DNA of 64,000 nucleotides from Lineolata rhizophorae (Eukaryota > Ascomycota > Dothideomycetes > Lineolatales > Lineolataceae), in NCBI GenBank assembly GCA_010093515.1, contig MU001678.1:328931-392930 (forward strand), in the 5' to 3' direction. The notes below the pieces were generated by a model. It was not told the origin of the DNA, did no database searches, and was given only the letters and a program-made list of their open reading frames with translations. The position numbers and the translations under genes were made by a program. Below, piece after piece: positions 32,142 to 55,998 of this stretch (the first letter of the stretch is position 1; every line of letters starts with the position of its first letter).

Positions 32142-35100
32142 TCAAACCACGTGATTCGCATAGTTGTTACGGTAGTAGTAGTCGTCCTCCATATTCCGCA
32201 CCTCCCTAAGACTGCTCGGCCGGTAAGGTGTCGATCCACCCGACACGCCCGGCCTCGTAAAAGCCTTAGGCGTGGTCCCCTTCGGGTCATCGCCGTCTAA
32301 ATTGACCATTTCATACCCATCGTAACTGCCCCGCCGCGAGCTGGCCGGCGTGCTGTCGAAAGTGCTGATGTGGCCACTACCGCGCGCGCCAGGAGCACCG
32401 CGGATGAGCCCCGAGATGCCCGGGTCGTCCCACATGGAGCTGAAGGAGGTGGCGTGGGAGGAGTGCTTGAGCCAGGTTGGCCGCGGGTGCGCCATCTTCT
32501 GGAGCTGGTCATCCGTGTAGTCGCCCGTGAGGTACGCGGGTGCCTTCTGGAAGCCGGAGCTGCGCACGGGCATGTCGTTGGCGCCGGGCGTGCTGCCGGC
32601 GCGCATCTCGTAGTGCGCCTTGCCGATCCAGAGCATCTGCTCGTGCTCCCGCAGGTACCGCTCGCCGCTGAAGGCTTTCTGCACGATCTCGCGCGCCATC
32701 AAGCCCAACTTGCGCCGCTGCTCGGTCTTGTCGTACATGCGTTGCGTGATGATGGCAACGTCTTGAGGGGTGGGATTGACGGGAAGCGTGGGTGCCGGGC
32801 GCCCGGGCTCGTCCTCGGCGTACGGTGCCCATTCGCCGATCATGGCGAGCATCTCAATCTGGGCCCGGGCAATCGAGCGCGGGTCGTTGGGCGCTACGAC
32901 GGAGCTGTACCGCGCGCCGGTGTCCCGATCTGTGAGAATACTCAGGGAGGCGCCCACATCGGTACAAACGACAGGAGCTCCGGTAAGAGCTGCCTCTCCG
33001 AGCGCCAGAGGAAGACCCTCCGAGACAGATGAGTTCAGGAATACCCAAGTGTTGGCGAGGACCATTCCCGGGTCGGCCGTTCCCTTCAGGGTTACATTGC
33101 TGCCGATGCCTTTGCAGGCAACGATCTCCTGGCACTCCGATGAGTAGATGGGCGATTTGTTAAGCGCGCCGTACACGTCCAAGTTGTACTCGCTAAAGCC
33201 CCACTCGTTCACAATGATGTCGGCGGCAAGCAAGGCTGTCTTGATGTCCTTGGCAAACCAAAGATGGCTCAGCATAGTTACGGTTGGCTTCTTGCTCTGG
33301 ATTTCCTTGACAGGGGCGAATTTCTGTTGAATGCGTTAGCTTAGTTACATAAATCTAGGAATGGGCTAGTGCAAACCTTCATATCCTCTATACCATTAAC
33401 AATGGGATCGATCTTGCGGCGGAAAGTGTTGCGGTGCTCAATTGTGCCTTGAGCTGTACCAATTTCCGTCTCCCAGCCAGGATTGAAGAAATCAGCGCAC
33501 GGTAGGATTTGGTCCGCATGATAGAGGGTGAGCATGGAGGTGAGGCGCAATAGACCAAGCAAGGAGTTCCGCATGAACGGCGGCAGCGTGCACATTGCAG
33601 ATGAGAGATAAAGGTTGGTTTCACGCCAGGAAATAGCGTGGTCCCAAATGGCGAGAGTCGAGCCGCGCTTGATCTTGCACACGATGCCATACGCCGCCGA
33701 GGTGCTATGATGTGATGCTTGGAACACCGCTGGGATCCGTTCCGGGATTGGTATCGAGAAGATGAAGAGATATCTAAACCAAAGGTCTAAGGCTGTGTCA
33801 AAGTGGCCGATCGTCGGGTGTTCACAATCAAACCATTCCGATGCGGGCTTGCAGCCTGGCATATCCTCAAGCCAGAGCCTCCGCCAGGTATCTTTGACAA
33901 TGTCGCTAGTCCACACAGCCATCCAATGCCTAGAGTTCTCAAAGAAGGTGTTCAAGTTGACAAGCGCGCGAGTGGCTTCCTTGACGTTTTGAGGTGAAAG
34001 CTCGATGGCCCTGGCGCCCTTGACTAGCGCGGTCAGAGTTGGGATGAAGTTTCTCTTGATGTCCATGATTGTCGCATCAAGCGTCATTTGGTCAATTTCG
34101 CTGTCAAGCTTATTTGAGAACCAACCGTGCACTGGCTGCATGAAATCGAGGCCCCATAGCGGCACGATTTTGAGCGACTCGACGTTTTCCTCGGTTTGGT
34201 ACTTCGGTAGCCCAAAGTCGGTGGCCGACTCGACGATCATGTGCCACCGAATAGTGTGAAGGTTGTTGATTACGTCTCGCCGACAAGCCGACACGCCGCC
34301 ACCCTCGTTTGGCCAGGTACCAGTGTCAACGGCAACCACGTGCAGCGTCTGGTCGGTATCAGGCTGGAGAGACTTGCTTCTCGTGTAGACGACAGCATCT
34401 CCACCCTGCCCGAAACTGAACAGGTCAGACATACGGATTGCGAGCGGAGTCCAAGCACTGATGTCAGAGGAGAGTTCGGCGCTCGCCATGACTGCGTCTG
34501 CATGCAGAGCTAGATGATCCTCTGCCCTGGACAAAGAGCCCCTGTCGCGGCGCTTCCAGTATTGCTTAAGGATAGGTTCGGCACGCATTAGTTGTTCGTC
34601 GAGCCAGCGAATGACGACACCGTCGAGATCATTGCGCTTCTTCCAGGCCTTCCACAGTTGAGAGCGCGACGTGGAAGTTGAGACGGGTAGCAGCTTGGTG
34701 TTAAGGCCAAATAAACGCGAGAAAATGCCGATATTGGCGGAGCGGAACTCGAGGAGTGGGTTGTCGTTGCGATAGAGCGTATGAGTGGGCTTTTTGAGCA
34801 CGCCAAGCCAATCGTGACCGATGAGATCCGGCGTCTCCGTGGGAATTCCGTTCAGCCTTGTGGTGATGCGCGGGTGGAACTTGTGGTCATAGTTCCAGTT
34901 GCACTCGTATACATCCGGGCCTTGTACAAAAGTAGCTTCTACGACTCTGTTATGCGGAATCCAGCGCTCAAGCTTCTCGGGGTGGCGAATTGGCGAAGCG
35001 CACCAGCTAACGTTGACGGTCATGTGCGGAAGGGAAAACTCCGCCCGCAGCAAGCCATCATCGAAAGTAGTGTTCTTGCGATAGTGGTACTTGAAGCGAA

Positions 35101-38100
35101 CTAGGTTGCCATGAAGGTAGTAGCTCCCGGAGCCAATGCGTCCCTTGAAGTCGTAGTGCACGATGGCCTTCGCATCCTTGCCCCTGACACAGTTCCTGGT
35201 CATGGGCAGACGAGGGTTCATGATTTTGTTGATCTTGGTATGTCTTCTCATCTTGTCGCTGGGATAGTCATACATGAACTTGTTGACTAGCTCGCCCTTG
35301 TCATATTCTTCGCGATCGAGGAGACGCAGCGCCTTGTCGTAAATGCACACTGTCTTGATTTGCATCCGATCCGTTGGCTCAGTCTTGTGCACTCCCGGGT
35401 AATAAACTAGTTCGAAACCCCCGTCAGTATGGCGATGAATGAAGGCAGTCGACTGTCCATCAAGGCTCTCAATCCGCATGCGATCGCGATCGAGCGTGAG
35501 ACGAGTTCCCTTAATACTCTTCCAAAGCGTCTGGATGTCGTTACGGCCATGAAGGAGAAAGAAGCTGAAACAGATTGTCTGGGCCCCATGACAGTATCTC
35601 CAAACCAAGTTCAAGAGATAACGGAGGGGAACTAGCAGTTGCTTCCCGTTGGCCATGTAATCGAGTTCGCGCTGGTATTCAGGATCTGCAACCAACGCAA
35701 GCACGATGAATTTGATGGAAACACCAAGTTTCCGGTATGCGGCTGCAAATGGTTTGGCTACCCTCTCAAGCTGAACCTTGATCCAAGACTTTTCTTCAAC
35801 CTTGACGCCCGGCCGTTCATACGCAGCAACCTTAGACGAGATTGGCTCCAGAAGAGCTTGCGATAGACGATTGCCATGAGGAGAATTCAGGTAGTTCCAC
35901 TTCTGCACGGCCATCAAAGCACCGAGATCGTACCGCGCAATGCGAGACTGGAGGTTGCAGCCCATTTCCGAACCGATCTGGGAGTCCAGCCAACGGAACT
36001 CGTAAGGAGCAAAAGAGGCATGTCCGCCTACACAGCGATGCAGGAAGGCAGAGCGGACCTCCTGGGGCAAAGTCTCCCACTTCGTTTCGGGATCGATGCC
36101 GAGGCAGAGGAAGCGGACGAGCTCGTGGCGTGCGGAGATGGCGAGCTCGGCGATCGGAGTCTTCGAGGTGCCCATGCGTTTGATGCTCTCCGGGACTTCG
36201 TAGTCATCCTCGTTGATTTCCTTGGCAACCAGGAGAGTCTCGAAGAGGCTTGCATGCTCATGCTGGATATCGAACATTGCCTCCGCGCAGGCATGTAGGA
36301 CGATTTCCGCCATCGATCGGCAGTGGTTCGAAATGCTGGTGCGGAAATTGGTCGGTTCCGGATCTGAAGCGATATAGATGTGCAAGTGGCCTTCACACAA
36401 GCAGCTAATGGCGCGAATTCCCGCTTCCGGCTTGATCGTTGGGCTCAGGTTGACAAGATCGATGGACACGAGGCCGTTCCTCCATGCATCTATGATGCTG
36501 TGGATCATCTCAGGAGCTTGAGGGAAGGCTTTCAGAGCAAGAGGCGACAAGGTATGGTGGTTGCTAGCCATGAGTATCGCCCGAACCTCCACACCAGGAT
36601 GTTGTTCAGGAGAGATGTTCAACTCGTCGCCTTTGGTGTCAGACTGCAGTGCATCATAGAATGCCTCAAGTTCCGCCTGGCTCCACTGGTGTTCCGTTGA
36701 ACCTGGCCCGTATGCATGGAATGTCTTCAAGACGGCCGCTTTATGAGGTTTAATAAACTTGGGAAGTCCGATCCGGGCAGTGCGGAGGGTCAGAATTGCG
36801 GCAATCCATGTGGCTGTGGCCAGGGGAATAACCATATTCCAGGTGAAGGACGGAAGCTCCAGTTTGAGAACCACTCCGAGAGGGAAGCCAACAACGGTCG
36901 CAACCAACAGAGGAACCAATGCGCGCTCCCCGGAAAAGATCTTGTTGTACTGGTACCACAGCAAGCCAGTGTAAGCTCCCACATATGATAGGAACATAAT
37001 GAGAGAGTTCAGAGTGCCGTCAAGAAGAAAGATCAGAGTGGCCGTGACAGAGAGAGCCCAAACATGCACGCCGAGAAACCTAAAAAGGGTCTTCCAATAC
37101 AGCTTCTGCCTGAAGCGAGCGTCGTAGGCCTTCGCCGCCTGAAGATCTTGAGCCGTCATGACCGTTACTGGCCTGGAGAGCGAGGAGAGTTGATGCAAAT
37201 GTTGGGCCTTGTAGTCGAGGAGCACAGCACCGATAAGGTAGTACGCCAAACTAAAGCCAACGGACATGCGGTAAGTCTGGTTGTTGACGGCAGATAGACC
37301 GACCAGAGAGCCACCCGTGCACAGCTCAACCCATCTGTCAAGGAGAGCCACAACGAAGTAGAGGACACCGCACCCGATCTCTTCGCCGGCATTCCGCCAA
37401 TGAATAAATGCATTGTGGATGCGGATACCCTTCTGGTTCTGGCGCAAACTGTCGTGTGCTACTCTGACTTCGATATTCCAAGTCGAACTGAACGGGATAG
37501 GCCGGCGAACGTCGGTTGTGCGGCAATACCAGTCCAAGAGGAAAATAGTGGCATCCCAAGTCTTAGCCAAGTTTTTAACCAAAGGATCAGCAGTGGATTT
37601 CCGCCAGAAAGGTCGCTGCTTTTCCTTCATCACCGCCTCGTACAAGTGGCCTCTTGACAAGCTTATTGCAGCGGGATCCGTTAGACCGGCAAAGGCGTCC
37701 TTGGACCCTTTCGCCACCTGCTGAACGTACCAGTCCTTGACTCCTTTGTCGTCGACCGTTGTGATGTTGTTGCACCACATGACCCATTGGGACCCCGAAT
37801 ACCTCGTTCCGAGCACGAGGCCAAGGACGAATATAAACAGAACAGTCAAGTAGATGATTGAATCGGCGCCATCGATAAATAGGGTCAAGATTGGCGAGAT
37901 GCCCAGGATGGGAATAAGCATAATGATGATCTTGCGACCGCTGAGGAAAGACGACCCGGGGGCCTGGAAACTTGAAAGAGCGGCGAGGACGGAGAGATAA
38001 GAAGTCAAGCCGAAGAGATAAAAGAAGAAGATGAGCCCGGATTGGACCTTCTCCACTGCACTAATGACGATGAATCCAATCAGCCCACCAAAGAGAGTGA

Positions 38101-41100
38101 ACGCGAGACCGCCAATAAGGCGAGTCAGCACGAACATGTTGGCTGCGGAAAAGGCCATCGATATTAGGTAGTAGGTGCCGCCGATGGAGATCCAAGTGCC
38201 GATTGCACCAGAGAGAAGAAGCGAGATCATCAGGGCTAGCGTAGCATTCTCTTGTTCACTCTTCGTCATGAAGGCACTAAGGTACAAGCCACGCCCAGTC
38301 GTCGTCAAGAGAATAATGTCGATCAAGGCCGGAATCGCAAAGACACTGAGATATGTAAACCGACGATAGCCAGGAACCACTGTCGGCTTCTGGTTCGGGT
38401 CAATGTCTGTCTGCGCTGCCGCATAAGCTGAGGCAAAGGCCGGCGCATTGTCGATCCACATCGGAGGCTGGTTCTCGCGAAGGCCGTAGTAAGACCTGTG
38501 CCTTTCCGCAAGGAGCTTGCCGAATACGTTGGGCGTAATGTCGAAGTAGGCATCGCACCTGGCGCCGAGAGCAAAAAGCTCCGCCATGGCACCGCTTTGG
38601 TCAGAGTATTCGTTTTGAAGCGGATTGCGGTCTGAGACCTCGACGTAAATCTCGTCAAAAGCGTACTTTCGAGCGGCGCAAAAGACGGCTAGCGTTAGGA
38701 AGTCCCCGGCGGGATCGTAACCATCGGCTTCGGCTAGTATCTGCAATGCATTGGAAATCCTGTCTAGGCAGTGGTACCGTTGCCTTAACAGAATGTCGCG
38801 AAAGACATTGTCGACCTCTCGGAAGATGTGCAAAGCTACCTCAGTGCTGACGAAAGTGTGACCGTGTTGGCGATACCATTCGAGTCTCGCTTCGACAAGC
38901 TGGAGATCGCTAATGTGACCGGCCAGATAGTCGTAGGTGCCCAGCTTCTTGAGCTGCTTGAAAGTCGGAATTTCAAGCAGGAGCTCTTCGGCAAACATCC
39001 AGAGGCTATTTAGTAGAGGGCAACCCTCATCGTTGTCCGAGAACCGGATGTGCTGGAGGAATGCCAACAGCTCCGTCGGCGAGAGCCTCTTGAGGTCATT
39101 CTCAATGCGGTGGGGTAACTTGTCGTCAACCTTGATGCCAGTATGAAACTGTGCGAAGGCGGCTTCCGCCCAAAAGCAATGGTACCTCGGAACCTGCTCA
39201 CTAGAGAGATAGGTGTGGATTATTGTGCTCAGCAAGTCCGGCGAGGACTTTGACGTGTAGAGAATCAGTGAGCCAGTCCGTGGTTCGTGGTCGAATACAG
39301 CCCAAAATTGTGTTAATCCCGCAGTATGGAAACCTGAGTCGAGGCCGATGAACACCTGGATGTCACCTTGGTCCGGATTGTCAGGCGTCTGGACTAGGAG
39401 TTCCGCGAGGGTCTGGATAGCTTGCATTCCTTTAAGAGGTGCAAACGGCCAGTAAGCATTGATGTTATTCGCGACAAACTCCTGAAGTGTTCTTCCATAT
39501 TCCCGAAGTTGCTCCGAGGGAACTTGACTCAGAAGATTGAGCCGCCGAAGACGGACCTGACTCTTCACGATCTTATTGAAATCTTCAAGAGTGGCGTCAA
39601 GCCCGATAGGAAAGCATCCGAAGCCGTCGTAGCAAGTTCCATTGGGCGATGCGGAAAGTGGGTTCGCGCGGGTGCGCTGGAGGCGCGTAGCCCAGTCGAG
39701 GTTGGAGTGGTCATCTGACAACACACTGCTCCCGTCGCCGCTTCCATATGGCGTATCTAGGGCACTTCCGCTGTTGTGGGCTAGGGTCGTGACACTAGAT
39801 CTATTGTCGTTGTCTTCAGGCGAATTCCAAGATTTCATATTTGTCATGAAATGTTTCAAGCTCGGCAATATCAGCTCAAGCGACCGGAAAACTTCATATC
39901 CAGCACTAGAGCGGAAGCAAAGCTTCTAAATGTTAGCGTATCATGCTCTAAACAACAATAAGGTTGAACTTACTTTGTTAGCTTCCCTGTACTTTTCGTG
40001 AACTTTCATGATTTTGCCTTCCTTGAGCCACTGGAATGCACCTAAGGGCTCCATCACAGTCGTACTAGAAGCAGCATCCAACAGTGAAGAAGCTGTGCCA
40101 ATGAACGGGACACCACCGTGGTAGCTTGTCCAGGAAAAGCTGCGTCGAATAACCGCGTGTGAAAGTTCAACATTGTCATCAACCATCTCCCACATCATGA
40201 CAGTAAAAGGCCGGAGGGTAGATTGAGTGACGAATGACTTGACGGTGGACTTCATTTTCTCCATCTGGAAGTAATCCCTCATTTCGCCATCGGAGAGTAT
40301 GGTAGCGTTACGCAGAACTACACCCGAGAAATGCTTGAGGTGTACCGATGCTCCATCAAGAAAGTTGGGTGCGCTAACCTCCAAGAACACTTCCAGCCCG
40401 AGCCGACCGAGCGCGTCCGCATAGTTGTTCAAGAACTGTCCAGGAATGCACTCGTCCCAGCCAGCTATCAAGATAGCAGGTGGAACTAGAGGCTTCTCGG
40501 TTCCAGACCAGATGCTCTTCATGAGCTCGATGCTTGAGTCCACGATAGCGCACATCTGCGTAGCCTTGTCCTGGTCTCCAACACCCGGCAGCCGTCCGAC
40601 ATCCAGCCGGGCAATCACGCGGCATGGCGAGTTGTAGGCGAGGTTTTGGACGACATTGAGTACACCGGGCTGGAAAAGATCGAGGATGATGCTGTCCCAT
40701 CGTTCAAGTAGGCGACCCTGGGCTTGCGTAGGCGGATTCGAAAACCTTCCCAGATAGACACCAAAGGTCTTAGGTTGTTGTGTGGTTTCGACATGGCTAT
40801 AAGGAAGGGCAGTGCGGGCAACTTCATCCAAGCGATGCTTCACACGATTGGGGATGGGAACTCGGGAGCGAGATTCCTGGGTCAACTTATGTCAGTACTA
40901 ATACAGAACAACAATTCGGAAACTTCAATCCATCCAAAGCCAAGGGAGCGAATGAGTGGAGTCGGTGGTCCATGAAGGGACCACGGTATCGGTACTAGAC
41001 AAGTGACAAGCGCCTGGCTCTTCACCAACCGTTGACCACATACCTTGTGCTTCCTCCAAAGATACCTAACACCAGCCCACAGAAATGTCAGGATCCCAAC

Positions 41101-41205
41101 TGCGGCGCTGGCAACAATAATCCCCAGGAGGGCCTTCTGCCACCAGTTTTCCAGCGCGTGATTGGGGTCTACGGCGTCGAAGCCGACAATGTCAACGTCC
41201 GCCAT
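32142..41205 (-). CDS. gtb3: Gtb3: giant membrane glycosyltransferase (GT4) of galactosaminogalactan synthesis, spliced (4 exons, 2931 aa)
   Basis: Exons 41205-41044, 40876-39974, 39925-33377 and 33323-32142 are all phase 0. Domains: an N-terminal membrane segment (about 23-49); a region at about 80-340 with alternating beta strands and helices resembling a TIM barrel; a soluble region at about 455-860; a hydrophobic bundle at about 875-1065; a second at about 1205-1405; and a long cytosolic part ending in a GT-B fold. The C-terminal GT4 domain has the EX7E motif (E2640...E2648 in SEGLPLALGEA) followed by TGAPVVCTDVGA, and upstream ASHHSTSAAYG and GSTLAIWDHAI, resembling PelF-type GT4 enzymes. 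In A. fumigatus, Gtb3 is the predicted synthase and transporter of the GAG polymer. Its size and neighbours (divergent agd3, then ega3, sph3, uge3) make the assignment strong. The three short introns are supported by frame and hydrophobic pattern. Confidence 0.92.
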
Positions 41206-42859
41206 GAGGGGCAGCGACCCCGGGTATTACAATTGAGGATTACGAGAAGTAGTAAAGCGAAAGAACAACGTGTATTATGAAACGAGAGAAAGAATTATGT
41301 CGACATTCACGATATAGGCATTGCGAGTCGGTTGGCTACAGCAGAAGCTACGGGAACGACTGCTGATGGCGGGGGAAGACGCGCCAGGAATGAGAGGAAC
41401 AATCGTCACAGAGCGCTTGAACAAACGTGCCGTGGGTATCAAACAGTAACTATAGAAAAGGCGGAAAGTGCGCAGGAGGGCCTCTGGCAGTGGCTGAGAC
41501 TTCCGGCTATTCATTGCTAACGTACACGAGCACCGCTCAGGCCCTTCTCAGCCAGAGCCGTGGCACCTTGCCACGCCGGCACGGCGGCATCCAGAGCGCT
41601 GCAGCGCCTTGGGCCGCGGCCGTGCCTCCGAGAGCATCATACGGGGGGGGCCATCGTCTAGTGAGGGCCCGGAGCATGGCCAGCTCGCCTGTTGAACCGA
41701 GTTTTCCGGGACTGCGACTCCCAACATAGCAAACGACGAGCAGCGCATCCCTGACGCGGCGCATGGGGGAGGGGGGATGCCTCGATGCGCGGCTCACCGG
41801 GCAATGAGGTGGTCTCGGAAAACGGAGGACCCACGAAGTAGGAACAACAGGGGGCGATGGGGGGCCACGGAGCGTGTGCAGCATGGGATACGGAGTACGA
41901 CAGCGCAGCATTCGCGAGGGCCGATGCGGCGACGGGGTTCGCAGAGGAGACGGGGCGACAGGCATATGCGGCATGCTCGGGTGAAGTTGCGTTGTAGTGC
42001 AGGGTTTGGTCTGGCGGCGCGGCGGTTAGACTGACGTCCTGGCACCGCAGAGCGGACCCCTGTAGGGCTTGGCGGGAGACCGGGGTGGCTTCCCGCCGCT
42101 TTAACAGCGCAAATTGGCGCCGCATGGGAACCCCTGCATAGGTGTCCCGGGGGTTTCGGCGGCGCGCGCTTGGCGCCAAGCCTGCCATCTGTGGCTGCAG
42201 ACAGGGGATCGCGGAGCAGGCAGGCACAGTGCATCTCATCCATCCATGGTGCGCACGGGCACCCGGGTTTGTCGCGCCTTGTGCCAGAGACCCACGTTCT
42301 ACCACCTGCCACCTGCCAGCACGACCCGTCGCCCTCCCCAAGTGAACCCCCCCGGACGCCGCCGCCTGAGCCCTACCACCCGATTTCGTTCACGCGCCAC
42401 GCTGTTGCGCTACGAGCCACCGAGCATAGTATTGAAACTCGCCTCGCCGATTGGCATCCATTCCCGAAGTTGCAATGGTCCTCGCCCGACGCTTCATTTC
42501 TCTTGATCTTTTTTTATACATTGTCCCCTTTCAGTCGACGTCTTAGCAAATCGAAACCCCCTGAGTCGATCTCGGTCGACTGAACCCGGATTGTTGTTCA
42601 AGCGAGGGTGCGAGCATTATCGACTCAACTATGTCCGGGGACGCCGCTGGGCACTCGTGGCGGGAATAGTTCCCGCCATCGCTATTCCCAATACTGCACG
42701 CCCTCAGCTCCACATCGGCGACCCGCCAGTTCATTCACTCCTTTTTTTCCGACGCATGGTGGTTTATTAGGTACCCAGGTCGCACCCAACACTATCTTAC
42801 ACCACAGTCTTTCGTTTGCACTGCCGCTCGTCGTTCGTTTCTTGTTGTAACCCTTCACA
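41206..42859. promoter_or_regulatory. 1.65-kb shared divergent promoter of gtb3 and agd3
   Basis: The region separates gtb3 (-) and agd3 (+), so co-regulation is likely. It is GC-rich with overlapping non-conserved ORFs. In A. fumigatus GAG genes respond to StuA, MedA and SomA; I could not confidently mark their sites here. No gene seen. Confidence 0.45.
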
Positions 42860-45251: not shown

Positions 45252-45913
45252 AAACGTGCATTTTCCCCTCATTCTAATGCATACTTAATGTAATTACTGC
45301 GTGTTACTGCATATAGGCTGGAAGGTTGTAGTTCATCTTGGCATGGTTATAGGGCAGCATTCCCTGGGAGCAAAAATAGCATGCATTGTTTCCAATGTTT
45401 TGGTGCAGAAGCAAGTTCTGGTGTTTGTGTGTGCATTAGGCCGAACAGGACGTGGCCACGCTCAGAGCCTATAGCAACCGAAGGCGATACTCTTGCCAAG
45501 GCGTTAGGTAAGGAGTACTGGGCGCCTGAGGTCGCGGACGGGAGCGGCGGCCAGCGGAGCGCTTTTGGCGCGCTTTTCTGGCTGGCCAGTGCCATGCCGT
45601 GATCTGCGACAGGCGTGCGTCGATGTTCGGCTGATCCCTGCTCGCGCGTCCGCGTGGAAGGACGGGGGAAGACAAGAAACGGCGCAGAGGAGAGCAGCGG
45701 GCTTGCTGCGGGCGGTTCCGCGCCAGCCGAGTGCGCCCATTGCCCGCCGATTGGAGCGCAGCCCGCGCCGCCGACCGCGCCGCCTTCAGCCCGGCGCATT
45801 CGCCCACGACGATCGATCGCAGGTGTGGCGTCGTATTTTTTTTGTCTCCCGTTTCTCGTCTTCTCGCCCACTACAGCAACAATAGCGCACCCTTGGCTGG
45901 CCTAATCTTTTTT

Positions 45914-45944
<31 letters not shown>

Positions 45945-46816
45945 GGGGCACTGACCGCCACACTCTATAGACAGCGTCCTCAACGGCAGGGCCCGTTGAC
46001 TGACAGCGGGCCGGCCACCGGGCGCCGGCCTTTCGACTCTTCGAGGCCCTGCGGATTCGTTGCAACATGAAAAGGGCTCGTTGCTTCGGCCACAGGGGAG
46101 CCCCGGCGCTTGCACGTGTTCCAGCCTTTGTGGGCAGGTAAAGGAGAGCAGGCATTGCACAGCCTCATGCCGCGCGACTAATGAAAAACCCCGTGTTGAA
46201 CACGATAACTTCCGCCCGTCCAGCTCTCCCATCTCCAGCTCTGTGCTCCGTCCATCGCACGGCTCGAACAACTTCAAGCCACGCATCATCCCTGCATGAT
46301 AACACGGAATACTCACGCTCGATCATTCTAGCCGCGATCGTGATCATTTTGCTTCAATCTACTCTCATTGCTCCGCTCACCCCGCTCGCTCTGCCTACGC
46401 CCGTGCTTTGTCCGAGCGACTCAGTCCGCCACAGACCACCACACCACACCGTATTTGTGGTCTCCCTCTACTGCACGCCGCGTCGCTTTTTCTATTTTTT
46501 GTCCACCAAACATCTTTGAAACTTTGTTCCCTTCGACTCTTGCCGTTGCTTGTTTCCCACTTGTTGCATCACATTTCAGTCACCCGACCTTCGTTTTCCG
46601 AAAGGCCCCTTCCGTCCCGCCTCCACTTTCCCCTGCAACCCTGCTGCGTTAGGCCATGCAGTAGCAGAAAGTTCGCAGTCCCGGAAAAGAAAAATATCGA
46701 CTTTCTTTGACTCTTGGGAGATCCCGGCGCGCCGAGTGCCGATCACATTCCACCCCTCCTACCTACTCAGGCACACACTCCCACACAGACGCCGTTTCTC
46801 CACAAGTCAAGCAAAA
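45252..46816. other. 1.6-kb intergenic region upstream of ega3
   Basis: This lies between the agd3 stop and the ega3 start. No gene seen. It includes the T16-G25 tract at 45908-45948 and the promoter and leader of ega3. Confidence 0.5.
45908..45948 (+). repeat. Homopolymer pair T16 then G25
   Basis: Sixteen T residues are followed directly by twenty-five G residues, 869 bases upstream of the ega3 start. A G run this long can form quadruplex structures and is prone to slippage. It may also be an assembly or sequencing artefact. Confidence 0.75.
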
Positions 46817-47844
46817 ATGTTCAGCAAGCAACCCCACAACGCGCAGCTGCCTTTCTACAGGCGTAAGCGAGTTCTCCTTGTGCTCCTTGGCCTTGTCCTT
46901 GTTGTCGTCATTGTCATTGCGGTCGGGTTGGGCGTCGGGCTTACCAGAGGCGGAGGCGGCGAGGAAGAAGAGGGTGAGGCGCCGACTCTACCGACGCGCC
47001 CGCCCACACCCAGTGAGGCCTGGCAGCCCGCCGTGAACAGCAGCTGGCAGATCGTGCTCCTCTCGCCGCTGAACGTCTCCGAGGACGCGACGTCGGTGGA
47101 GCCGGACGTCGAGGTCTTCGACATCGACCTCTTCATCAATGACCGCGAGACCATCGACACACTGCATCGCCTGAATAAGAAGGTCATTTGCTACTTCAGC
47201 GCCGGATCCTCAGAGGACTGGCGCCCGGATTTCGATGACTTCGATGAGAGCGACTTGGGAAATGACCTCGATGACTGGCCCGGCGAGAGGTGGCTCAACC
47301 TGAGCAGTCCCAATGTTCGCGGAATCATGGAAAGGAGAATTATCATGGCGGCTGAGAAAGGCTGCGATGCCGTTGACCCGGACAATGTTGATGGCTACGT
47401 ACGTTCCTCTACCTTAAGTTTACTTCTCTTGTGCTGATAGTAGCTTAGCAAAATGACAACGGCCTCGACTTGACAGAGCAAGACTCGGTCGACATGATGG
47501 CATTCCTAGCCGGAGTAACTTCCAGGCACCAACTGTCCATCGGTCTAAAGAACGCCGGAGACATCATCCCCACGGTGCTCCCCATCGTCCAATTCTCTGT
47601 CAACGAGCAGTGTGTCGAGTACGGTGAATGCGACACCTTCCGCCCGTTCATCGAGGACAACAAGCCCGTCTTCCACATTGAATATCCGTCTTCCGCTCCA
47701 AGTATCAGCCAGAACACGCGCCAGGACTATTGCCGCGACAGCGGCGACGGCGACGGCTCCGAGGAATTTAGCACCGTGCTGAAGGACATGGATCTCAGTG
47801 GCTGGGTCGAATATTGCAGCGGCATGTCTGCCACCACCCAGTGA
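46817..47844 (+). CDS. ega3: Ega3: GH114 endo-alpha-1,4-galactosaminidase, spliced (2 exons, 325 aa)
   Basis: Exons are 46817-47398 and 47449-47844. Residues about 14-40 are a basic-flanked hydrophobic anchor (RRKRVLLVLLGLVLVVVIV), so the protein is probably a type II membrane protein facing the cell surface or secretory lumen. A Pro/Glu linker follows, then the GH114 barrel from about residue 60: WQIVLLSPLN, VFDIDLF, KVICYFSAGSSEDWRPDF, GERWLNLSSPNVRGIMERRI, CDAVDPDNVDGY, the second-exon QNDNGL and SIGLKNAGDII motifs. Conserved acids in DAVDPDNVDGY and downstream fit the family. In A. fumigatus, Ega3 cleaves alpha-1,4-linked galactosamine segments of GAG made by Agd3. The intron was placed between GY and QNDNG, where homologues are continuous. 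Confidence 0.93.
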
Positions 47845-50800
47845 TCCCAATTGAGATACCTGTCTCCGGCTTTCTTCAGTGCTTAGGCTCTAAGCTGCGC
47901 CATTTCTCTTTCCCTTTTGCTACGCATTCCCGATGCCTTCTCTTTCTATTTTCTAGTGTTCATGTATTTTGCAGCGATGGTGTTGTTGGTCTACTACTAG
48001 CATTGCATAATGGGCGGCGTCGGAGAGACTTTTACCGATGTATCTCCGTATATTTGTATCTATAGCTTCCGCTTCTGTTCTCGTGGAGGTGTGGCTCTCT
48101 CCGTGATAATCAATTTAATTTTTCGTGTCGTTGCTAAATTTACCGCTCTTAAGGGTGATCGGGTAGATGGGTGTTCCCCGGGTTCACGATGCGTCCGGTC
48201 TCGCAGCAAGGGCCCCCGAGGCCCTTCCCTGTCACTTAGAAAACAAACAAAAGGTCGTTCCCCCGCAAACATCATAGGCGCCCTAGATCCCAGTGAATTG
48301 CTATCCATGCCATAGCTGAACAAGCATTTGTCAAGCTCAGTCCCTCAATATATTTTGCCGCGGTTCTATTGACAATAGCAGTGCACGGTGTTGAGGGAGA
48401 GTCTGGGAAGTAGGTATCAGGCGTCCAGGCTATCGGACCTGGACCCCAGGGCGTTACAACTCTGGTACTAATGCAAGGGGACTTGGGGGCCCTTTTTACC
48501 CGCCTAAATGGTCAAGGAGACAACCCTCAACGCTCGTACTCACGTTCTCTTACAACGCTCTTCTGGATGTGGAGCAAAAAGCCGATGCGGCTATTCGGTT
48601 GCACTTTCCCACGAAACAGCACGACTGGTAGGGTTGAGCGCCCCCCCATAAAAGTGCATAACAGAGGGACAACGCCTTGAAGTTCAACCAGGATAACACC
48701 CCGGGCGCGAGAGCAAGAGAATGGGGTTTAGCAGCCGGGACGTATGGAGCAGGAGTTGAAGTAGTGAGCTCCGTTTTTGGACGCGAGCTCCGACGTCCAA
48801 CCCCGATTTGCACACTTGTATGAGAAATTTTCCCTTCTTGGCGTTGCTTGACTCGGGGCTCCTCGAACCACCGTTTCTTCGAATGAATCGTACCAACTCG
48901 AACTCAGGGGGTCGAAAGAGAAAGGGTTGCCCGTACGCGGTAGTTGCGATGCCGTGACATCCGCTTGCCGTTGCTGGATATCTTGGCGACCTTGGCATGG
49001 GATAGGTTTTCTCCCACCAGCTAGTTCAGGGGAAAAGAACATAACAGACATCTATTGTTTAGATTTCCACGAGCGGAATTTTCGACTGTCATGGAAATGC
49101 TGGATGTGGACGTTTTGGCCCGTCCCGGTCGGCGTAGTGACTGGATCAGGCGTGGGACGCGTAGACAGATCAGATTGAACGAGGCGCAGAGATTTCCAAT
49201 ATTTTTCTACATGAGATCTAAAATCATCAAAAGTTTCTCATTCGTGCTCGCCGTTAGGCGTGCTTGACTCTGTCTACCTCTGCCCCCCCTAACTATTGAC
49301 AAACCCCCGGTCCCCACGTGCCGAGCCTTATGCAGTGATGGCTGGTAAACTTGGCCAATCCGCCAAGGCCAAGTAGGTGGTTATGTACTAATTGGGTTTG
49401 GCTTTCGGAGGATTCAATACTTTCTCTTATCCCCCGCCTTCAAGGCGAGGCGTTTCTGCTTTTCAGCAAGCGAGATTTCCGTTCGTGATTGCCGCGCGTT
49501 GATGCCCGCGTTGCCGTTTGCCGTTTGCTATGGCGTCTCTGTATCCCGCATTCTCTCTCCCACTAGGAGGAAAAAGTTAAAAGTTCTCTCGGATTTGGGA
49601 AGGTAGGTAGCTCGGTCAAGCGGGTCCGGAAGTTCGGAAGGCAATGCTGTGTACTGCTGGGGAATCCAGCCGAGTGCACGACCGGTCCGTCTCCTCCGTC
49701 CCGCATGATTTCCTTGCCGCTTGCCCTCCCCTTGTCGACCCACCCTTGGATCTGGCCACCAAGAAGCGAGTGAAGTGGAGAAAGCGACGAGGAACCTAAC
49801 CTATTACGGAAAAGACTGCACCGGGGCCACCCGTGACTCGGCACATGGAATAATACGAAGCGCTAAAGGAGACAATGCTCGGTTTGCCAACCCTTCAGGA
49901 GGAAAAGAAAGGTCCTAAGAAGCGAGGGCTACTGTGGGTCTGGTAGGACCGAAATTCTAGTCGAGAATCTCCTAATTTTCCCCATGGCTTGGACGGGCGC
50001 AGTGGTCCGTCGTCAGTCGTCCACCCGCTGACCGTCGCGTTTTTCAGCCCAGTCGTACTAAAACGACCCGGAGCCGGAGATCGAGCCATACATATACGAG
50101 GTTGGTCGATCACACTATAAGGTTCCACGGTTCGATCTCATCCTTCCGCCAATGCGTGCGGGGCGTACCATCTGATTACATAGTGATCTGTATGCTATCT
50201 AACGAGATGCACCGGGCACGGCCTTGGACTGCAGCCCGTAAAGAGTCGTTGACCATCCACTTACTATGAACAGGGGAGAAGATATCCCAGAAAAGGAGAC
50301 GGAGTTCTATAGCCAGTTCGAGCAAGGCGTGCCGCAGGAACGCCAAGAAACCCCTCGTCGCCCCCAGTGAGGGTTTTCCCACCCATGGGCCCCGCGCCTC
50401 CTCTCCGCGGGCTGCTGGAACAAAACGACGCAAAAGCGGCTGGCGGCGGCAGCAACATCACGCGCAAAACAATAATCGATCCACGGCGAATCGCGTTAGG
50501 CAGCCCAAACACGCCCCCGGGACGTCTAAGCCACGGGCTGCCCAGCCCACGAAACAGCCCAAACGGCGGGGTGGGGCTGGCTTGAAACGCGCCTCATTCG
50601 CGCGCGTTCGGCCCCAAGGCAACCCCTCTCCTCTCCAAGCGTGGCCTCTTGGGTTCCGCGCTTGCGGGTATGACGTGCCTGATCTCCAGGGGCACACACA
50701 GCAGACCTCGGCAGATCTTACCCCGGCGCACCTGCCCATTGAGCGAGGCGTCGTCGAGCCACCGCCGTTGGTCTGTCCACCACGCGATACTGCATACGGG

Positions 50801-52698
50801 CTTGCTGCCCGCCTGCCCAGCTGCGGGACATCGCATGCCACTTGCATAGCGAACATGGCCAGTCAAGGAGCCTTTCCTTTGCTTTGCTGCCTTTTTGTTT
50901 TTTTTTTTTCCTTTTCTTTCCTTGTTTCTGCTGAGCCGCCTTCCCATTCAGTTGAGTTAGCGTGGGCCAACCGCATCGTCTTCCTGTTTCTGTGGCGAGC
51001 TGCCACCGTGGATGTTTCATTCGACTGGCCGACTTGGGCAGGCAGCTGCCGTCACGCCGCATGTTCTCATTTTTTGGTTTTTGGTTTTCCCTGGTGCGCG
51101 GGACTGACTTGGACACGCCTCCCCTGAGACCGTTTGCTCAATCTCAGGAGGCGTGTTTTGCCTGCTGTCAAACGCCAAGGCGCTTCCATGAGCCCATCGC
51201 CACCACATACTCCCGAGGCTGTTTGAGCGTTTGGACCGCCAGCTTGGTGCGAAGACGGCGAGTCGACGATGGGACGGGATAGAGAACACCGCACGCGGAT
51301 ACGGAGTGGCCCAATACACCCAAAGTCGTTCGAGCGGCGCGCCTTAGGCCCGGAAAGGCTAGAAAAGAAGGGGGGGGAAACAAAACTCTTTCTTCGGCGC
51401 GCGCTACGAAACCGCATCGCCCGCCAAGAGCCCGCCACGGCAAGACACCGTTGGGGCTTGGGAGAGGGCGAAAAGAGGCGGAGGGGAAAGGCAGAACGGG
51501 CCGTGGGCGGCGGCGCGCCGTCAAGGAAAATTCTCCGGGCACAGACCAGCCCCCCAAGCCACTCCCCCCTAGCGGCCGCCGGCAATGGGCCCCGGCGGGA
51601 TGCCCGGAAGAGGCGCGCGGGCGCGGCGTCGAAATAAAGTTGCCCGGCAGGGGTGGCCTGCCAGCAAGGCGCCCGTCGGACGACCAATGAGTCGACCGGG
51701 CCCCGGCCGGGCCCTCCGTGCCCCCTGCAACCCGCTGCTTTTGCTTCTAAAGCGGCCAGCAGAGCGCGCCGGCGCCACTAAGCCATTTCTTTGCGGGGTA
51801 CCGGGGCCCCTTGCGCAATATCCCGGCCGCCGCCCATGCGGGCTACGCACGTCGCGGCTACTATTTCGGGCATCGCTCGACCCGCGAATCCGCGACGGCG
51901 CTCGCCTCACCCTGGTCCTGCGCGCTCCACTCCCATGCCACGACATGCCCGACTACACGCCGACGACCGAGGAAGCGCCCTCCCCAACATTGTCGTCGTC
52001 GCGCCACATGCAATCCCGCATCAGAATGCCCGTCCCCGCGACAGACGGCACGGCGATCCGGCTTAACAGACGCTAGATTCCGCTCGATTCTGCTCTTTTC
52101 CTGGTTTCTCTGCCGTGCCGTGTCCCGCCGAAGCTGGCGGTCCCGTGGGCCCCGGCCAGGTCGGTTGCAGAAACACGACGCCACGAGCCACGGTCTTCTG
52201 TCATGTTGCTCGGTCACGTCGTGCAACATCGCGATCCCTAGCCCGTCCACCCAAGTCTGTAGTGCCCCCGTGGCGATGTCTCGATCACGCTGCCGCCTGC
52301 AGTTCCGCGCCACGGGCCGGAGAGAAAGAGAGTTCGGAGCTTCTCAGCTACCCATCGGACGGACTCTCGGCGCTTCCGGTCATGGTACGAACAGGTCTCG
52401 CCACTGCTGGCGTGCGCTGGGGGCCGTCTCGATACTGTTTTGTGGCCCCCTGGAAACTTCGCCCCAAGGTTGCTCGCCCGCGCTGTTGGGAATGAGGCTG
52501 ACATCACACCGGCTGTCCGCGGCCAGATGGCGCGAAAGCAGCGCCTCCCTGAGCCCCCGCACTCAACTGGCGCTATTGTCAAGAAAAACTTTTCTTTTGG
52601 CTGCGTGACAAAACAAATGCAAACACATGCTACGGCGTACGCATTATCCCTCTGACGCCACTTTTGCCCAGGGCCCACTCCAGCCACTCGCTGATTAC
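47845..52698. other. 4.85-kb gap without recognisable genes inside the GAG cluster
   Basis: Between ega3 and sph3, whose 3' ends face each other, I find no ORF with a domain, consistent codon use or family-like sequence. The right part is GC-rich, so both strands carry open shadow frames of up to about 265 residues. No tRNA, repeat array or mobile element recognised. A small lineage-specific gene or non-coding RNA cannot be excluded. Confidence 0.5.
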
Positions 52699-54000
52699 CT
52701 AGATGGCGCGCACGAAGTCCCCAAACTGAGAGCTAAACGAGTGGTAGTAGTCAACCGCAAGGTTGGTGAGAAATATTGAGCCGGCCAAATCCTGCAGCTG
52801 GTCCACTAGTTCGTGGAGCTGATCACCTTCCATCTCTGAGTCAGGTACTGAGTGAACCAGCATGCAAAGGTCCTGCCTGTCCTGTTGCAGATCCCTAACT
52901 CGGCTCACGGTGTTGCTGTTCTGGTTCTCGAAAGTCCGGTACGCCTCCTGAGCTCACATGTCAGTTCAAAACAAAACAGATCCAGCGCAATGGTGAGGCA
53001 AGCCACAGGCCGGATGAGGAAAGTCTCTGGGGTCCCTATTTTGGGATCGCTCTCTTAGAACGGGAAGGTCAAGGGTTTTGGCTTACCTCAAAGACGACAG
53101 TCAGGTCCGCGCTCTCCATGTACCGCGGGTCTGGAACCATGCCGGGGTTGTGAACTGTACATCATCGTCAGTTCTGGGCACAATCAAAACGCAAAGTACG
53201 AGGATGGGGCTTCCCAGCATCTTGGCTAGCGGCCTTGCGGACCGGGGTGACACAGGCCCCGGACAGGCCCTCAACAAACAGACCACTTGAACAGGCCAAA
53301 GTGGGGTTTCTGCCGCGGGCACTAGGGGAAGCAGGGGAAAGGGCTCCAGGGCGGAACGGTGACATACCGATGTAGGTTCCAAGGCCGGCGGTGGACTCGA
53401 CCTCCGACCGAATGTTGGTCAACAGCTCAGCTCGTGGCGCTTCGTACTCATTCGGCGTCTCGTCGAGGAAAACGCCGTCGAGGGCCAGCGATTGATTTTG
53501 GTCAGCCCAACCGGCGTAGGTCGAGATCTCCCGAGATGCATTTTCCATGCTTTTGGTGCCCCATGTGGTGGCAATGTATCCCAACTTCTGAATGTTTTCG
53601 TAGCGACTCAGCCGCTCGATTTCACGTGTGTAGTTGCCATCCGGCAGTGGGTCGACGCCGGGCCCGCTGTTCGGATTGACCACGACAGTGAAATGCAAGT
53701 CTGGTCGAGCAGTAGCTCTAATTTTTTTTCGGATTGCAACCGCGTCAGTCGAAACAAAAGAGGGTTTCCGAGGTGCCGCAGAACTCACGCATCGTATAGA
53801 GGATCCCACGCGCCGGGGGCCGGGTAAATATACAGCGGCACAAAAACAGTAGTTTCTCCTTTCTTCATTGCCGCCCTCCTGCCGAAGACGACGGCAATCG
53901 GGATTACAATGGCCAAGACAATTATAGCAGAAAGAACGGAAATCCAGATGCACTTCCTCCTGTTCGTCGGAGCTTTTGGTTTCTTCTGAAAGAGCTTCAT
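52699..54000 (-). CDS. sph3: Sph3: GH135 (spherulin 4-like) N-acetylgalactosaminidase, spliced (4 exons, 292 aa)
   Basis: Exons on the minus strand are 54000-53789, 53717-53368, 53154-53087 and 52947-52699, joining to 293 codons. Residues 17-40 are a hydrophobic anchor behind a basic stretch (PTNRRK), suggesting a type II membrane protein. The catalytic barrel begins FVPLYIYPAPGAWDPLYDA, continues HFTVVVNPNSGPG, then YIATTWGTKSMENASREISTYAGW, ALDGVFLDETPNEY and HNPGMVPDPRYMESADLTVVFE. The acid pair D156-E157 corresponds to the essential acids I recall from A. fumigatus Sph3. Sph3 is an endo-alpha-1,4-N-acetylgalactosaminidase required for GAG production. The final exon gives AYRTFENQN and a C-terminal YYHSFSSQFGDFVRAI. 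Divergent from uge3 over about 700 bases. Confidence 0.93.
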
Positions 54001-54717
54001 CGTGAGCGAATGGAAACACAAAAAAAAAAGAATTAGTAGATTATAACAGAGAAAATTGTGGTTCTCAATAAAATGATGCAAGACAAAACGAGGGTAGTGG
54101 GTGTTTGAAGCGAGACGCCGCAAAAACAGGCGGACAAAAGAATGGTGTAAGGCTCCTAAATAATACACCGGTGCTGCAAGAGACCAATCCCGAGCCGCAA
54201 GCGAGTTTCTAAATGGGCAGCGCCGCCAAGAAGGCGGCTTAGGCAGGGCTACGTCGGCCGCAGGGGTGCGCGATCCAACCATCGGAGCCAACCGCGTGTC
54301 GGGCGAAGCTGGCCCAAATGGCCACAGCCCGGACAGCCCGCTCGCCGCCGGAGGTGGTAACAGCGGGACTCTAGGGCCGCCGAGCTCCCTTCTAGGGGGG
54401 GGCGTGGCTGACGAGACGTGCGTTTCGGTGTCTGGGAGCTTTTTCTGAGCCGCTCCGGCCAGCTTGCACGAAACCCCCGGGTGCGAAGTGAAGTCAGTGC
54501 ACGCAGTATTGGGTCCAGGGAAAAAACGACCAGCGGGAATTGGGTGAAAGTATGCAACCACGGAGCCCCAGCCATATATAGCTCGGATTGCTGCCCCCCG
54601 GTTCGCACCAATTCTTCGCGATCCAAAGGACAATATTAAAAATTCGGTTTCCGACATTCGTTTTTCTTTTCTTCTCTTTCATTCGTTTCTTTGGGCGCTT
54701 GAAGCTCTTCGCTATCC
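54001..54717. promoter_or_regulatory. Shared divergent promoter of sph3 and uge3
   Basis: 717 bases separate the two starts. It contains a TATATA box at 54575-54580, about 140 bases before the uge3 ATG, and pyrimidine-rich sequence nearer uge3. Shared regulation of precursor supply and polymer processing is inferred. Confidence 0.5.
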
Positions 54718-55998
54718 ATGGACACCCGTTCGCTTTCCGGCTCGTCGACCCCGGCGTCTTCCGTGGTCGACACGCCCGTGACCGAACGGTCAGTTCTTTT
54801 CGACGATGTGCCGTTCGAGCCTCTGGAGACCGCCTTCGGTGAAGGCCAAACCATAATGGTCGTTGGCGGAAACGGCTATATTGGCAGCCACACAACATTG
54901 GAACTTCTCAAGGAAGGATACAATGTTCTCGTGGTCGACGATTGTAGCAACTCATATCCAACCGTGTTTCGAAACGTCAAGACCCTCGCTCAACAATTCT
55001 ACTCCGGTAGAGAAAAGTCGATGCCTTCTCTCGAGTTCGAGCAAATAGACTACCGGAGTCCGGCTATGAGGTCACTACTGTCGCGCTACACTCGCTACAC
55101 CAACGGATCAAAACAGTGCATGATTAGCGGAGTCATCCACTTCGCCGCGTACAAGTCCGTCTCCGACTCGATCAGCAAGCCCCTCCAATATTATCAAAAT
55201 AATGTCTGCGGACTGGTGGAGTTCCTATCGCTCCTCCACGAGTTCGGAGTGAAGAACTTCGTCTTCTCTTCCTCTGCGACAGTGTACGGCTCAATGGCGA
55301 ACAAAGGGAAGCCTCTCACGGAAGAAGATTGCGTGCACCATCCCACAGTGGTCAAGGATGAGTCCGGTTCCGAGCGCAAAGTCGAAGCCGGAGTCTTCGG
55401 TCTCACTTCGCCGTACGGGAGGACCAAGTGGTTCGCCGAAGCCATCCTCGCCGACCTCGCGGAGTCCGATCCGAGCTGGAAAATCACCGCCCTACGGTAC
55501 TTCAACCCAGTCGGGTGCCACGAATCGGGCCTGTTGGGCGAGGACCCACGGCAGAAGCCCACCAACCTTATCCCGGTGGTGGCCAACGTCCTCGCCGGCG
55601 TGCAGCCAAAGCTACAGGTCTTCGGCTCCGACTGGGACACGCCGGACGGGACCGCAGTCCGCGACTTCATCCACGTGGTCGACCTCGCCCGCGGTCACAT
55701 CGCCGCCCTCGCCGCCGCTTCCAAAGGCCACATCCAGAGCCCTTTCCGGACGTACAACCTGGGCACCGGGAGGGGCCACACCGTCAACGAGGTGCTCAAC
55801 AGCTTGGAGCACGCGTCCGGGCAGAACGTGCCGGTCGAGAGGGTCGGCCGGCGGGCCGGCGACGTGGGCTTCTGCGTCGCCGACACCCAAAGGGCCAGCA
55901 GGGAGCTCGGCTGGAGGACGGAGAAGTCGTTAGCGCAGTGTGCGGCTGACGTTTGGAACTTTACGAAACAAAAAGTTATTAGTGTGGTCGGTCAATAG
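54718..55998 (+). CDS. uge3: Uge3: UDP-glucose/UDP-GlcNAc 4-epimerase (single exon, 426 aa)
   Basis: An extended short-chain dehydrogenase: the NAD-binding glycine motif VVGGNGYIGSH (G50-G56), the VVDDCSN pocket, HFAAYKSVSDS, the catalytic SSSATVYG serine region (S184-S186), and YxxxK in SPYGRTK (Y233, K237). RYFNPVG, NLIPVVANV, RDFIHVVDLARGHI and the C-terminal RRAGDVG are typical GalE blocks. In A. fumigatus, Uge3 interconverts UDP-Glc/UDP-Gal and UDP-GlcNAc/UDP-GalNAc and is needed to supply both sugars of GAG. The first about 42 residues are a Ser/Thr-rich extension before the Rossmann fold. Housekeeping Uge5-type enzymes exist elsewhere, but its position next to sph3 supports Uge3. Frame is uninterrupted. 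Confidence 0.93.
   Translation: MDTRSLSGSSTPASSVVDTPVTERSVLFDDVPFEPLETAFGEGQTIMVVGGNGYIGSHTTLELLKEGYNVLVVDDCSNSYPTVFRNVKTLAQQFYSGREKSMPSLEFEQIDYRSPAMRSLLSRYTRYTNGSKQCMISGVIHFAAYKSVSDSISKPLQYYQNNVCGLVEFLSLLHEFGVKNFVFSSSATVYGSMANKGKPLTEEDCVHHPTVVKDESGSERKVEAGVFGLTSPYGRTKWFAEAILADLAESDPSWKITALRYFNPVGCHESGLLGEDPRQKPTNLIPVVANVLAGVQPKLQVFGSDWDTPDGTAVRDFIHVVDLARGHIAALAAASKGHIQSPFRTYNLGTGRGHTVNEVLNSLEHASGQNVPVERVGRRAGDVGFCVADTQRASRELGWRTEKSLAQCAADVWNFTKQKVISVVGQ

Follow-up and report, generated by a model that had tools for sequence, protein, structure and literature searches.

The genes for the fungal polymer galactosaminogalactan (GAG) have been reported at one locus in 28 fungal species, belonging to the Pezizomycotina apart from one basidiomycete, with synteny in the majority of them (2016 mBio study, PMC4817252). 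In Aspergillus fumigatus the locus numbers run from gtb3 (07860) through ega3 (07890) and sph3 (07900) to uge3 (07910) (PMC4817252), with agd3 adjoining ega3 (Bamford 2020, PMC7229062), and both A. fumigatus and A. oryzae reportedly make no GAG once gtb3 is lost (PMC7329490). Deletion of the homologous cluster likewise abolished GAG in Metarhizium robertsii, and the same report names the cluster in Neurospora, Verticillium, Botrytis and others (Mei 2021, PMC8224951). The enzyme activities of Agd3, Sph3, Ega3 and Uge3 are known from relatives, according to the literature. Here, a stretch of 64,000 nucleotides of Lineolata rhizophorae (Dothideomycetes; assembly GCA_010093515.1, contig MU001678.1, positions 328,931 to 392,930 of the forward strand), hereafter referred to as the window, was analysed, in which positions 32142-55998 hold five intact genes in the order gtb3 (minus strand), agd3 (plus), ega3 (plus), sph3 (minus) and uge3 (plus).

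These five genes very probably form an intact cluster for GAG biosynthesis in a filamentous ascomycete; as far as could be tested, it is orthologous to the known ones. Considering that its occurrence in many Pezizomycotina is already published, such a cluster is expected in another filamentous ascomycete, and the one found here is a further instance of a known system. The original prediction, made from the letters of this stretch, was therefore right in its identification; the presence of the cluster, which it named as the discovery, is in itself of little interest, since the cluster is in print for many Pezizomycotina and tested in Metarhizium. The present analysis accordingly centres on Gtb3, whose glycosyltransferase domain firmly has its nearest relatives among PelF-like synthases from bacterial loci in which Agd3 is often present too, and which may be a synthase and exporter in one chain.

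Gene models and family assignment of the cluster

Spliced gene models were built by hand from the open frames, with splice sites taken from the sequence and junctions checked by script. All 12 inferred introns, of 48-213 nucleotides, are of the GT-AG type, and the five models contain no internal stop. The outer limits of the cluster are exact, the stop codon of gtb3 ending at 32142 on the minus strand and that of uge3 at 55998. The gtb3 model (32142-41205, minus strand) encodes a putative GAG synthase/exporter of 2931 amino acids in exons 41205-41044, 40876-39974, 39925-33377 and 33323-32142, separated by three introns of 167, 48 and 53 nucleotides. Opposite to it lies agd3 (42860-45251, plus strand; 700 amino acids), predicted to encode a CBM87-CE18 deacetylase in exons 42860-43259, 43319-43421, 43484-43507, 43569-43792, 43845-43915 and 43971-45251; another splice site at the end of exon 3 was rejected because it breaks the frame. 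This gene is followed by ega3 (46817-47844, plus strand; exons 46817-47398 and 47449-47844; 325 amino acids), of the GH114 endo-alpha-1,4-galactosaminidase type, by sph3 (52699-54000, minus strand; exons 54000-53789, 53717-53368, 53154-53087 and 52947-52699; 292 amino acids), a GH135 (spherulin-4) gene, and by the intronless uge3 (54718-55998, plus strand; 426 amino acids), of the UDP-glucose 4-epimerase type. Two divergent pairs result: the model start codons of gtb3 and agd3 (41205 and 42860) enclose an intergenic region of 1654 bp (41206-42859), and those of sph3 and uge3 (54000 and 54718) one of 717 bp (54001-54717), while ega3 and sph3 converge with 4.85 kb between them.

Pfam was run on unspliced pieces of the genes, and the PDB was searched at a threshold of E 0.001. 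The agd3 pieces match CBM87_Agd3 (2.3e-46), Agd3_CE (1.8e-176) and Agd3_C (2.7e-29), and structure 6nwz (Agd3) is the only PDB match for either piece, at 1.1e-159 for the last exon. In the A. fumigatus enzyme the residues D377, D378, H510, H514, R613, M666 and H668 were shown to matter, of which D377, D378, H510, H514 and R613 are assigned to the catalytic base and the metal ligands and H668 to the acid of this CE18 enzyme (Bamford 2020, PMC7229062). Counterparts of all seven stand at the aligned places when read by eye, that of D377-D378 reading VDD in the exon before last; for this reading, chain and protein numbering were taken to differ by 122, a value that follows from lengths of 806 and 684 and agrees with the H-x3-H motif. 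A signal sequence was also seen by eye.

The remaining three enzymes were assigned in the same manner. Ega3 matches Glyco_hydro_114 (2.3e-45) and, in the PDB, best 6ojb and 6oj1 (1.6e-98), with 9ep6 third; GCDAVDPDNVDGY and FHIEYP align to 6ojb and the motifs VDPDNVDGY and HIEYP are kept, within which we take the two active-site acids of GH114 to lie. Sph3 matches Spherulin4 (2.7e-35) and only two PDB entries, 5d6t and 5c5g (1.5e-76); FLDETP and VVFEEAY align to 5c5g and the motifs DET and VVFE are kept, the D-E pair and the distal E being presumably the active-site residues of GH135. Both proteins have an N-terminal hydrophobic anchor, as seen by eye. Uge3 matches Epimerase (3e-40) and GalE structures in the PDB (best 6.8e-88), and its motifs GGNGYIG, SSATVYG and YGRTK correspond to the nicotinamide adenine dinucleotide motif and the YxxxK of the GalE family; on these matches Uge3 is a GalE-type epimerase.

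The models, together with family matches far beyond chance, bear out the prediction of five GAG genes with intact frames within 24 kb, arranged in two divergent pairs. The same is true of the recognisable catalytic motifs, kept in Agd3, Ega3 and Sph3 when aligned to the solved Aspergillus proteins, and of the gene order, which follows the rising A. fumigatus locus numbers of gtb3, ega3, sph3 and uge3 with agd3 beside ega3. The proposed protein search against Aspergillus Agd3, Ega3 and Sph3 returned the solved Aspergillus proteins as best matches (one-way, in the PDB), the solved structures being those of A. fumigatus and A. clavatus enzymes according to the reports.

Several points weigh against reading the locus as a GAG cluster in the full sense. 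The comparison with characterised fungal proteins comprises Agd3, Ega3 and Sph3 only, by one-way PDB best matches; the basis throughout is genes, domains, intact frames and active-site motifs. In the published descriptions consulted, Gtb3 is a putative transmembrane glycosyltransferase for which polymerisation and export are only supposed (PMC9030451, PMC8647848, PMC7329490). Moreover, A. fumigatus Agd3 is described as a protein of 806 amino acids with a serine-rich stretch at 38-129 (PMC7229062), whereas the protein encoded here has 700 and lacks a serine-rich stretch after its signal sequence.

The surroundings of the genes bear on the alternative that five unrelated carbohydrate genes lie next to each other by chance and form no single pathway. 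Such an arrangement would accommodate the 4.85 kb between ega3 and sph3 (47845-52698), where none of 10 open frames (unspliced frames only) has a Pfam match. It would also accommodate the distribution of a StuA-like motif, for which the window shows no enrichment (62 sites against 97.3 expected); the gtb3/agd3 intergenic region contains no site and that of sph3/uge3 a single one. Against this, all five families recur in A. fumigatus in an unchanged order, and several of them lie side by side in bacterial loci. Because the combination of five families is conserved, chance adjacency is refuted for practical purposes, and we consider it extremely improbable. Joint regulation of the cluster by StuA was rejected as a candidate on the same lack of enrichment, which is a weak test.

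The glycosyltransferase domain of Gtb3

The last exon of gtb3 matches GT4 domains in Pfam, and its best NCBIfam match is PelF (59.4 bits, under the model cut-off of 100). The predicted PelF-like GT4 domain comprises residues 2214-2698 (32844-34351, minus strand), spans the intron 33324-33376 and contains the motif EGLPLALGE, of the E-x7-E form that is a feature of GT4. A canonical PelF profile was made from 84 sequences, representing the best 80 of 575 bacterial PelF loci and four plasmid loci, and scored 87.6 bits against Gtb3, with PelF matches both N-terminal and C-terminal. A second kind of bacterial locus was found to combine a PelF-like glycosyltransferase with a multi-spanning protein unseen by the PelG profile and, in many cases, an Agd3 relative. 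The profile of 20 glycosyltransferases from such non-canonical loci scored 182.5 bits against Gtb3, with its main match at 2214-2698; this figure may be tilted slightly in favour of Gtb3, since locus L091, through which many of these sequences came in, was reached by way of Agd3 but was conspicuous for its score with Gtb3.

A maximum-likelihood tree was calculated for 44 sequences, consisting of the 20 non-canonical glycosyltransferases, Gtb3, a sample of 21 drawn at regular intervals from the 84 canonical sequences, and the glycosyltransferases of loci L092 and L114. The two bacterial kinds are split with a support of 100/100, and Gtb3 falls outside the canonical clade, beside L093 and L115 (86/83). 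Where exactly Gtb3 belongs in the tree is unsure, owing to a very long branch (4.5 changes per column) and a deviating composition. By the profile scores, the GT4 domain of Gtb3 is firmly held to be closest to the PelF-like synthases of bacterial loci often also carrying Agd3. A search of viral contigs with exon 3 of gtb3 returned nothing.

Bacterial loci related to the cluster

An earlier report (Bamford 2020, PMC7229062) described bacterial operons in which agd3 lies with genes for a glycosyltransferase, a multi-spanning protein and GH114, joined in some actinobacteria by spherulin-4. When the five fungal proteins were used in single-sequence searches of the 84 canonical loci, the glycosyltransferase was found in 84/84, the epimerase in 25, GH114 in four, Agd3 in one (L082, Bryobacterales) and Sph3 in none. 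These counts come from an insensitive search, because a gene of locus L001 annotated as endo alpha-1,4 polygalactosaminidase was missed by it. Loci L001 and L003, on Sulfitobacter and Cereibacter plasmids (Rhodobacterales), carry canonical pelF-pelG and a gene so annotated, with galE in addition in Sulfitobacter; genes of the polygalactosaminidase and galE types thus also travel with canonical Pel.

Considering loci picked through Agd3, glycosyltransferase or membrane-protein queries, 29 were examined together, and counts over them are not an unbiased sample owing to this choice. The membrane protein is present in 25 of the 29, accompanied by a PelF-like glycosyltransferase in 20, Agd3 in 10, GH114 in five, the epimerase in five and Sph3 in two. 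Of the remaining four, L092 and L114 have canonical PelF-PelG, L094 has Agd3 alone and L110 the glycosyltransferase alone. In L092 (9363-14504) the canonical pelF and pelG are directly adjoined by an Agd3 gene, so Agd3 also accompanies the canonical Pel type. L092 is held by the genome of L082, as are L093, a non-canonical locus with Agd3, PelF-like glycosyltransferase, membrane protein and GH114, and L094, with a third Agd3 gene. In the phylum of this genome (presumably Acidobacteriota) Agd3 is rare, occurring in 2 of 247 genomes, and the membrane protein occurs in 8 of 396; it was found in 0 of 398 genomes of the phylum of a Thalassospira genome, in a search run without a positive control.

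The plainest examples are two actinobacterial plasmids. On plasmid NZ_CP126484.1 of Kocuria rosea (L139, 5687-12392 of the locus), genes for an Agd3-like protein, a PelF-like glycosyltransferase, a multi-spanning protein, spherulin-4 and GH114 lie in a row. The Agd3 assignment in this locus is weak, with CBM87 at 24.8 and Agd3_CE at 16.5 bits, both under the cut-off of 27.6, and a single-sequence match of 2.1e-9. The five-gene row mirrors the fungal cluster, the same annotated transposase family protein lies on both sides of it, and the plasmid is typed as mobilizable. A Streptomyces californicus plasmid (L138) carries PelF-like, membrane-protein, epimerase, spherulin-4 and GH114 genes, preceded by the gene of a large unnamed protein without Pfam match. 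On the Burkholderia stagnalis plasmid NZ_CP156687.1 (L089, 13005-15128 of the locus), an Agd3 relative is annotated as hypothetical protein, and no pel or GH114 gene is annotated within the stretch of 28.8 kb.

The membrane region of Gtb3 as a candidate exporter

Upstream of the glycosyltransferase domain, residues ~870-1375 of Gtb3 (36866-38383, approximate, minus strand) form a multi-spanning region that is a candidate PelG-like exporter, on the grounds of its hydrophobic segments and a weak collinear match. Eight hydrophobic segments lie between residues 878 and 1375, in groups of six and two. A profile of 13 members of the bacterial membrane-protein family scores 12.6 bits against the whole of Gtb3, with matches at 870-1000 (13.6) and 1207-1315 (4.5) in which the order of the profile is kept, while the best of 260 scored shuffles of the whole protein reaches 5.9. 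On the segment 840-1420 the same profile scores 16.9 bits, above every one of 1995 scored local shuffles (the highest at 12.4), and a profile of 25 members scores 12.8 bits there, again above all of 2000 scored shuffles (the highest at 7.6). When multi-spanning bacterial open reading frames were ranked with the 13-member profile (111 rows, two of them Gtb3), Gtb3 came first and the next four were genes directly downstream of pelF. The bacterial family itself, that is, the multi-spanning protein of the non-canonical loci, is by profile comparison a remote relative of PelG, a relation that is good (hhalign 97.7%, E 1.6e-12, 373 columns).

Other results weigh against the candidate exporter and fit a rival explanation, in which the membrane helices of Gtb3, a GT4 synthase, serve for anchorage only and the chain is exported by another, unlinked protein. 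The profile of canonical PelG (78 sequences) gives -16.8 bits on the whole of Gtb3 and -16.3 bits on segment 840-1420, a value that 1886 of 1997 scored shuffles attain. When the bacterial family is extended to 25 members, the whole protein scores 6.5 bits instead of the 12.6 obtained with 13 (11.7 at the first matched place and 0.1 at the second), and with this wider profile at least 12 bacterial open reading frames, including genes in the pelG position, outscore Gtb3. In hhalign, the bacterial membrane family aligned to the single Gtb3 sequence with a probability of 16%, over its first half only. The gene order is also reversed: in 16 of the 20 bacterial loci with both genes, the synthase gene precedes the membrane gene on one strand (adjoining it in 11), the membrane gene being first in one of the remaining four and on the opposite strand in three, whereas in Gtb3 the membrane part precedes the glycosyltransferase with ~800 residues between them. 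A mere anchor does not readily account for eight hydrophobic segments in groups of six and two, for two collinear matches to an exporter-like family, or for a segment score that no scored shuffle reaches, and we hold this rival to be a real but lesser possibility. Canonical PelG as the direct counterpart of the region, a guess from a D-K/R-W motif read by eye, was rejected after failing the profile tests.

The relation of the glycosyltransferase is therefore held to be firm and that of the exporter likely only. The membrane part of Gtb3 is thus likely to be exporter-like and related to the bacterial membrane-protein family, and Gtb3 may be a one-chain synthase-exporter. A more far-reaching proposal, for which we see the chances as evenly balanced, is that Gtb3 is a single-chain GAG machine descended from adjacent genes for a PelF-like GT4 synthase and a PelG-like exporter in an agd3-type operon of bacteria, to which ~1900 further residues were joined. 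In that event the fungal cluster would be an operon captured from bacteria, of the kind seen on the Kocuria rosea plasmid of L139 (agd3-like, pelF-like, membrane protein, spherulin-4 and GH114), and homologous machines would make and export both GAG and Pel. The open-access literature, available mostly other than in full text, yielded no statement that Gtb3 unites synthase and exporter. Should both parts of Gtb3 be homologous to the bacterial synthase and exporter, studies of Pel would directly guide those of GAG synthesis, and the exit of the fungal polymer from the cell would be testable with simple domain-loss mutants.

Regions of Gtb3 without a counterpart

About 1900 residues of Gtb3 (55-870, 1060-1200, 1390-2205 and 2770-2931) have no match in Pfam, NCBIfam or 5334 bacterial open reading frames. 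The latter were taken from 113 bacterial loci, being the 84 of the canonical set and the 29 examined together (loci L085-L089, L095-L109 and L122-L129 lie outside this set), and queries with residues 55-365, 365-640, 600-870, 1060-1200, 1390-1720, 1700-2205 and 2770-2931 gave nothing better than E 0.45 among them. Residues 55-355, encoded by exon 2 (39974-40876, minus strand), form a domain without assigned role, with no Pfam or NCBIfam match and a best PDB match of E 1.5. GH114 and spherulin were tried as relatives of this N-terminal domain and rejected, without a match (one target score of 1.2, E 0.014). AlphaFold2 models made without alignment for residues 55-355 and 836-1408 had a mean predicted local distance difference test score of 40.4 and 40.6 and were unusable; Foldseek with the 55-355 model gave 1153 matches at E<=10, none of which attained E<=0.001. 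Judged by name, most of the 50 matches listed are barrel-type folds, and no weight is placed on them.

Proposed pathway and product

We infer the order of action in Lineolata rhizophorae, the export through Gtb3 and the final product as follows. Uge3 would make uridine diphosphate (UDP)-GalNAc, and UDP-galactose, in the cytosol, and the GT4 domain of Gtb3 would polymerise the sugars of these donors at the cytosolic face, the chain then being passed outward by the membrane part of the same protein. Sph3, held by one N-terminal helix, would cut the acetylated chain close to its exit. Secreted Agd3 would strip acetyl groups, rendering the polymer cationic and sticky, and Ega3, also anchored, would trim the deacetylated stretches.

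The product is the point at which a variant of this scheme has to be weighed, namely that the cluster is intact and yields a partly deacetylated poly-GalNAc (polygalactosamine) without galactose, in which case the description of the product as a GalNAc-galactose adhesin would be wrong in detail. Nothing in the sequence fixes the sugar donor, and the bacterial relatives of the Gtb3 glycosyltransferase domain sit in Pel-like loci. Such polymers are also described in several fungi, that of Neurospora crassa being 30-70% deacetylated galactosamine (PMC7229062). Against this, A. fumigatus GAG, from the same five genes, contains both galactose and GalNAc (PMC4817252), and A. fumigatus Uge3 supplies both donors (PMC9030451, PMC8647848). 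We regard the galactose-free product as unlikely. Lineolata rhizophorae can probably make GAG, which bears on its adhesion, biofilm and host contact.

Surroundings of the cluster

By Pfam, the window further holds genes for an adenosine deaminase (9431-10330), ATG2 (13965-21143), a DUS3-type tRNA dihydrouridine synthase (24144-26462), an amidase in two frames facing the 3' end of gtb3 (29593-31513) and, beyond the cluster, a Tri-helical/DUF7767 protein (60786-62459). No tRNA and no Rfam RNA family was found in the window. In the gap between ega3 and sph3 the GC content rises to 0.71 at 51500-52000. Just past uge3, positions 57000-60000 are AT-rich (GC 0.40-0.48), with open frames of up to 152 amino acids only, and may be decayed repeat sequence.

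Comparison with known systems

Among the described systems, the A. fumigatus GAG cluster shares with this locus the five families, the gene order and the active-site motifs of Agd3, Ega3 and Sph3. The MrGAG cluster of M. robertsii has the same five genes, and GAG was shown as its product in that non-Aspergillus fungus; it differs from A. fumigatus in gene order and orientation (PMC8224951), whereas the locus analysed here keeps the A. fumigatus order. The canonical pel locus, with PelF and PelG, has in common with Gtb3 a GT4 synthase, with PelF matches both N-terminal and C-terminal; Gtb3 differs in that its glycosyltransferase is nearer to the other bacterial branch (182.5 versus 87.6 bits) and its membrane region has no PelG-profile match. 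The bacterial agd3 operons share the glycosyltransferase, the multi-spanning protein, Agd3, GH114 and, in some actinobacteria, spherulin-4, but there the synthase and the membrane protein are encoded by separate genes, whereas fungal Gtb3 is one chain of 2931 amino acids with ~1900 further residues.

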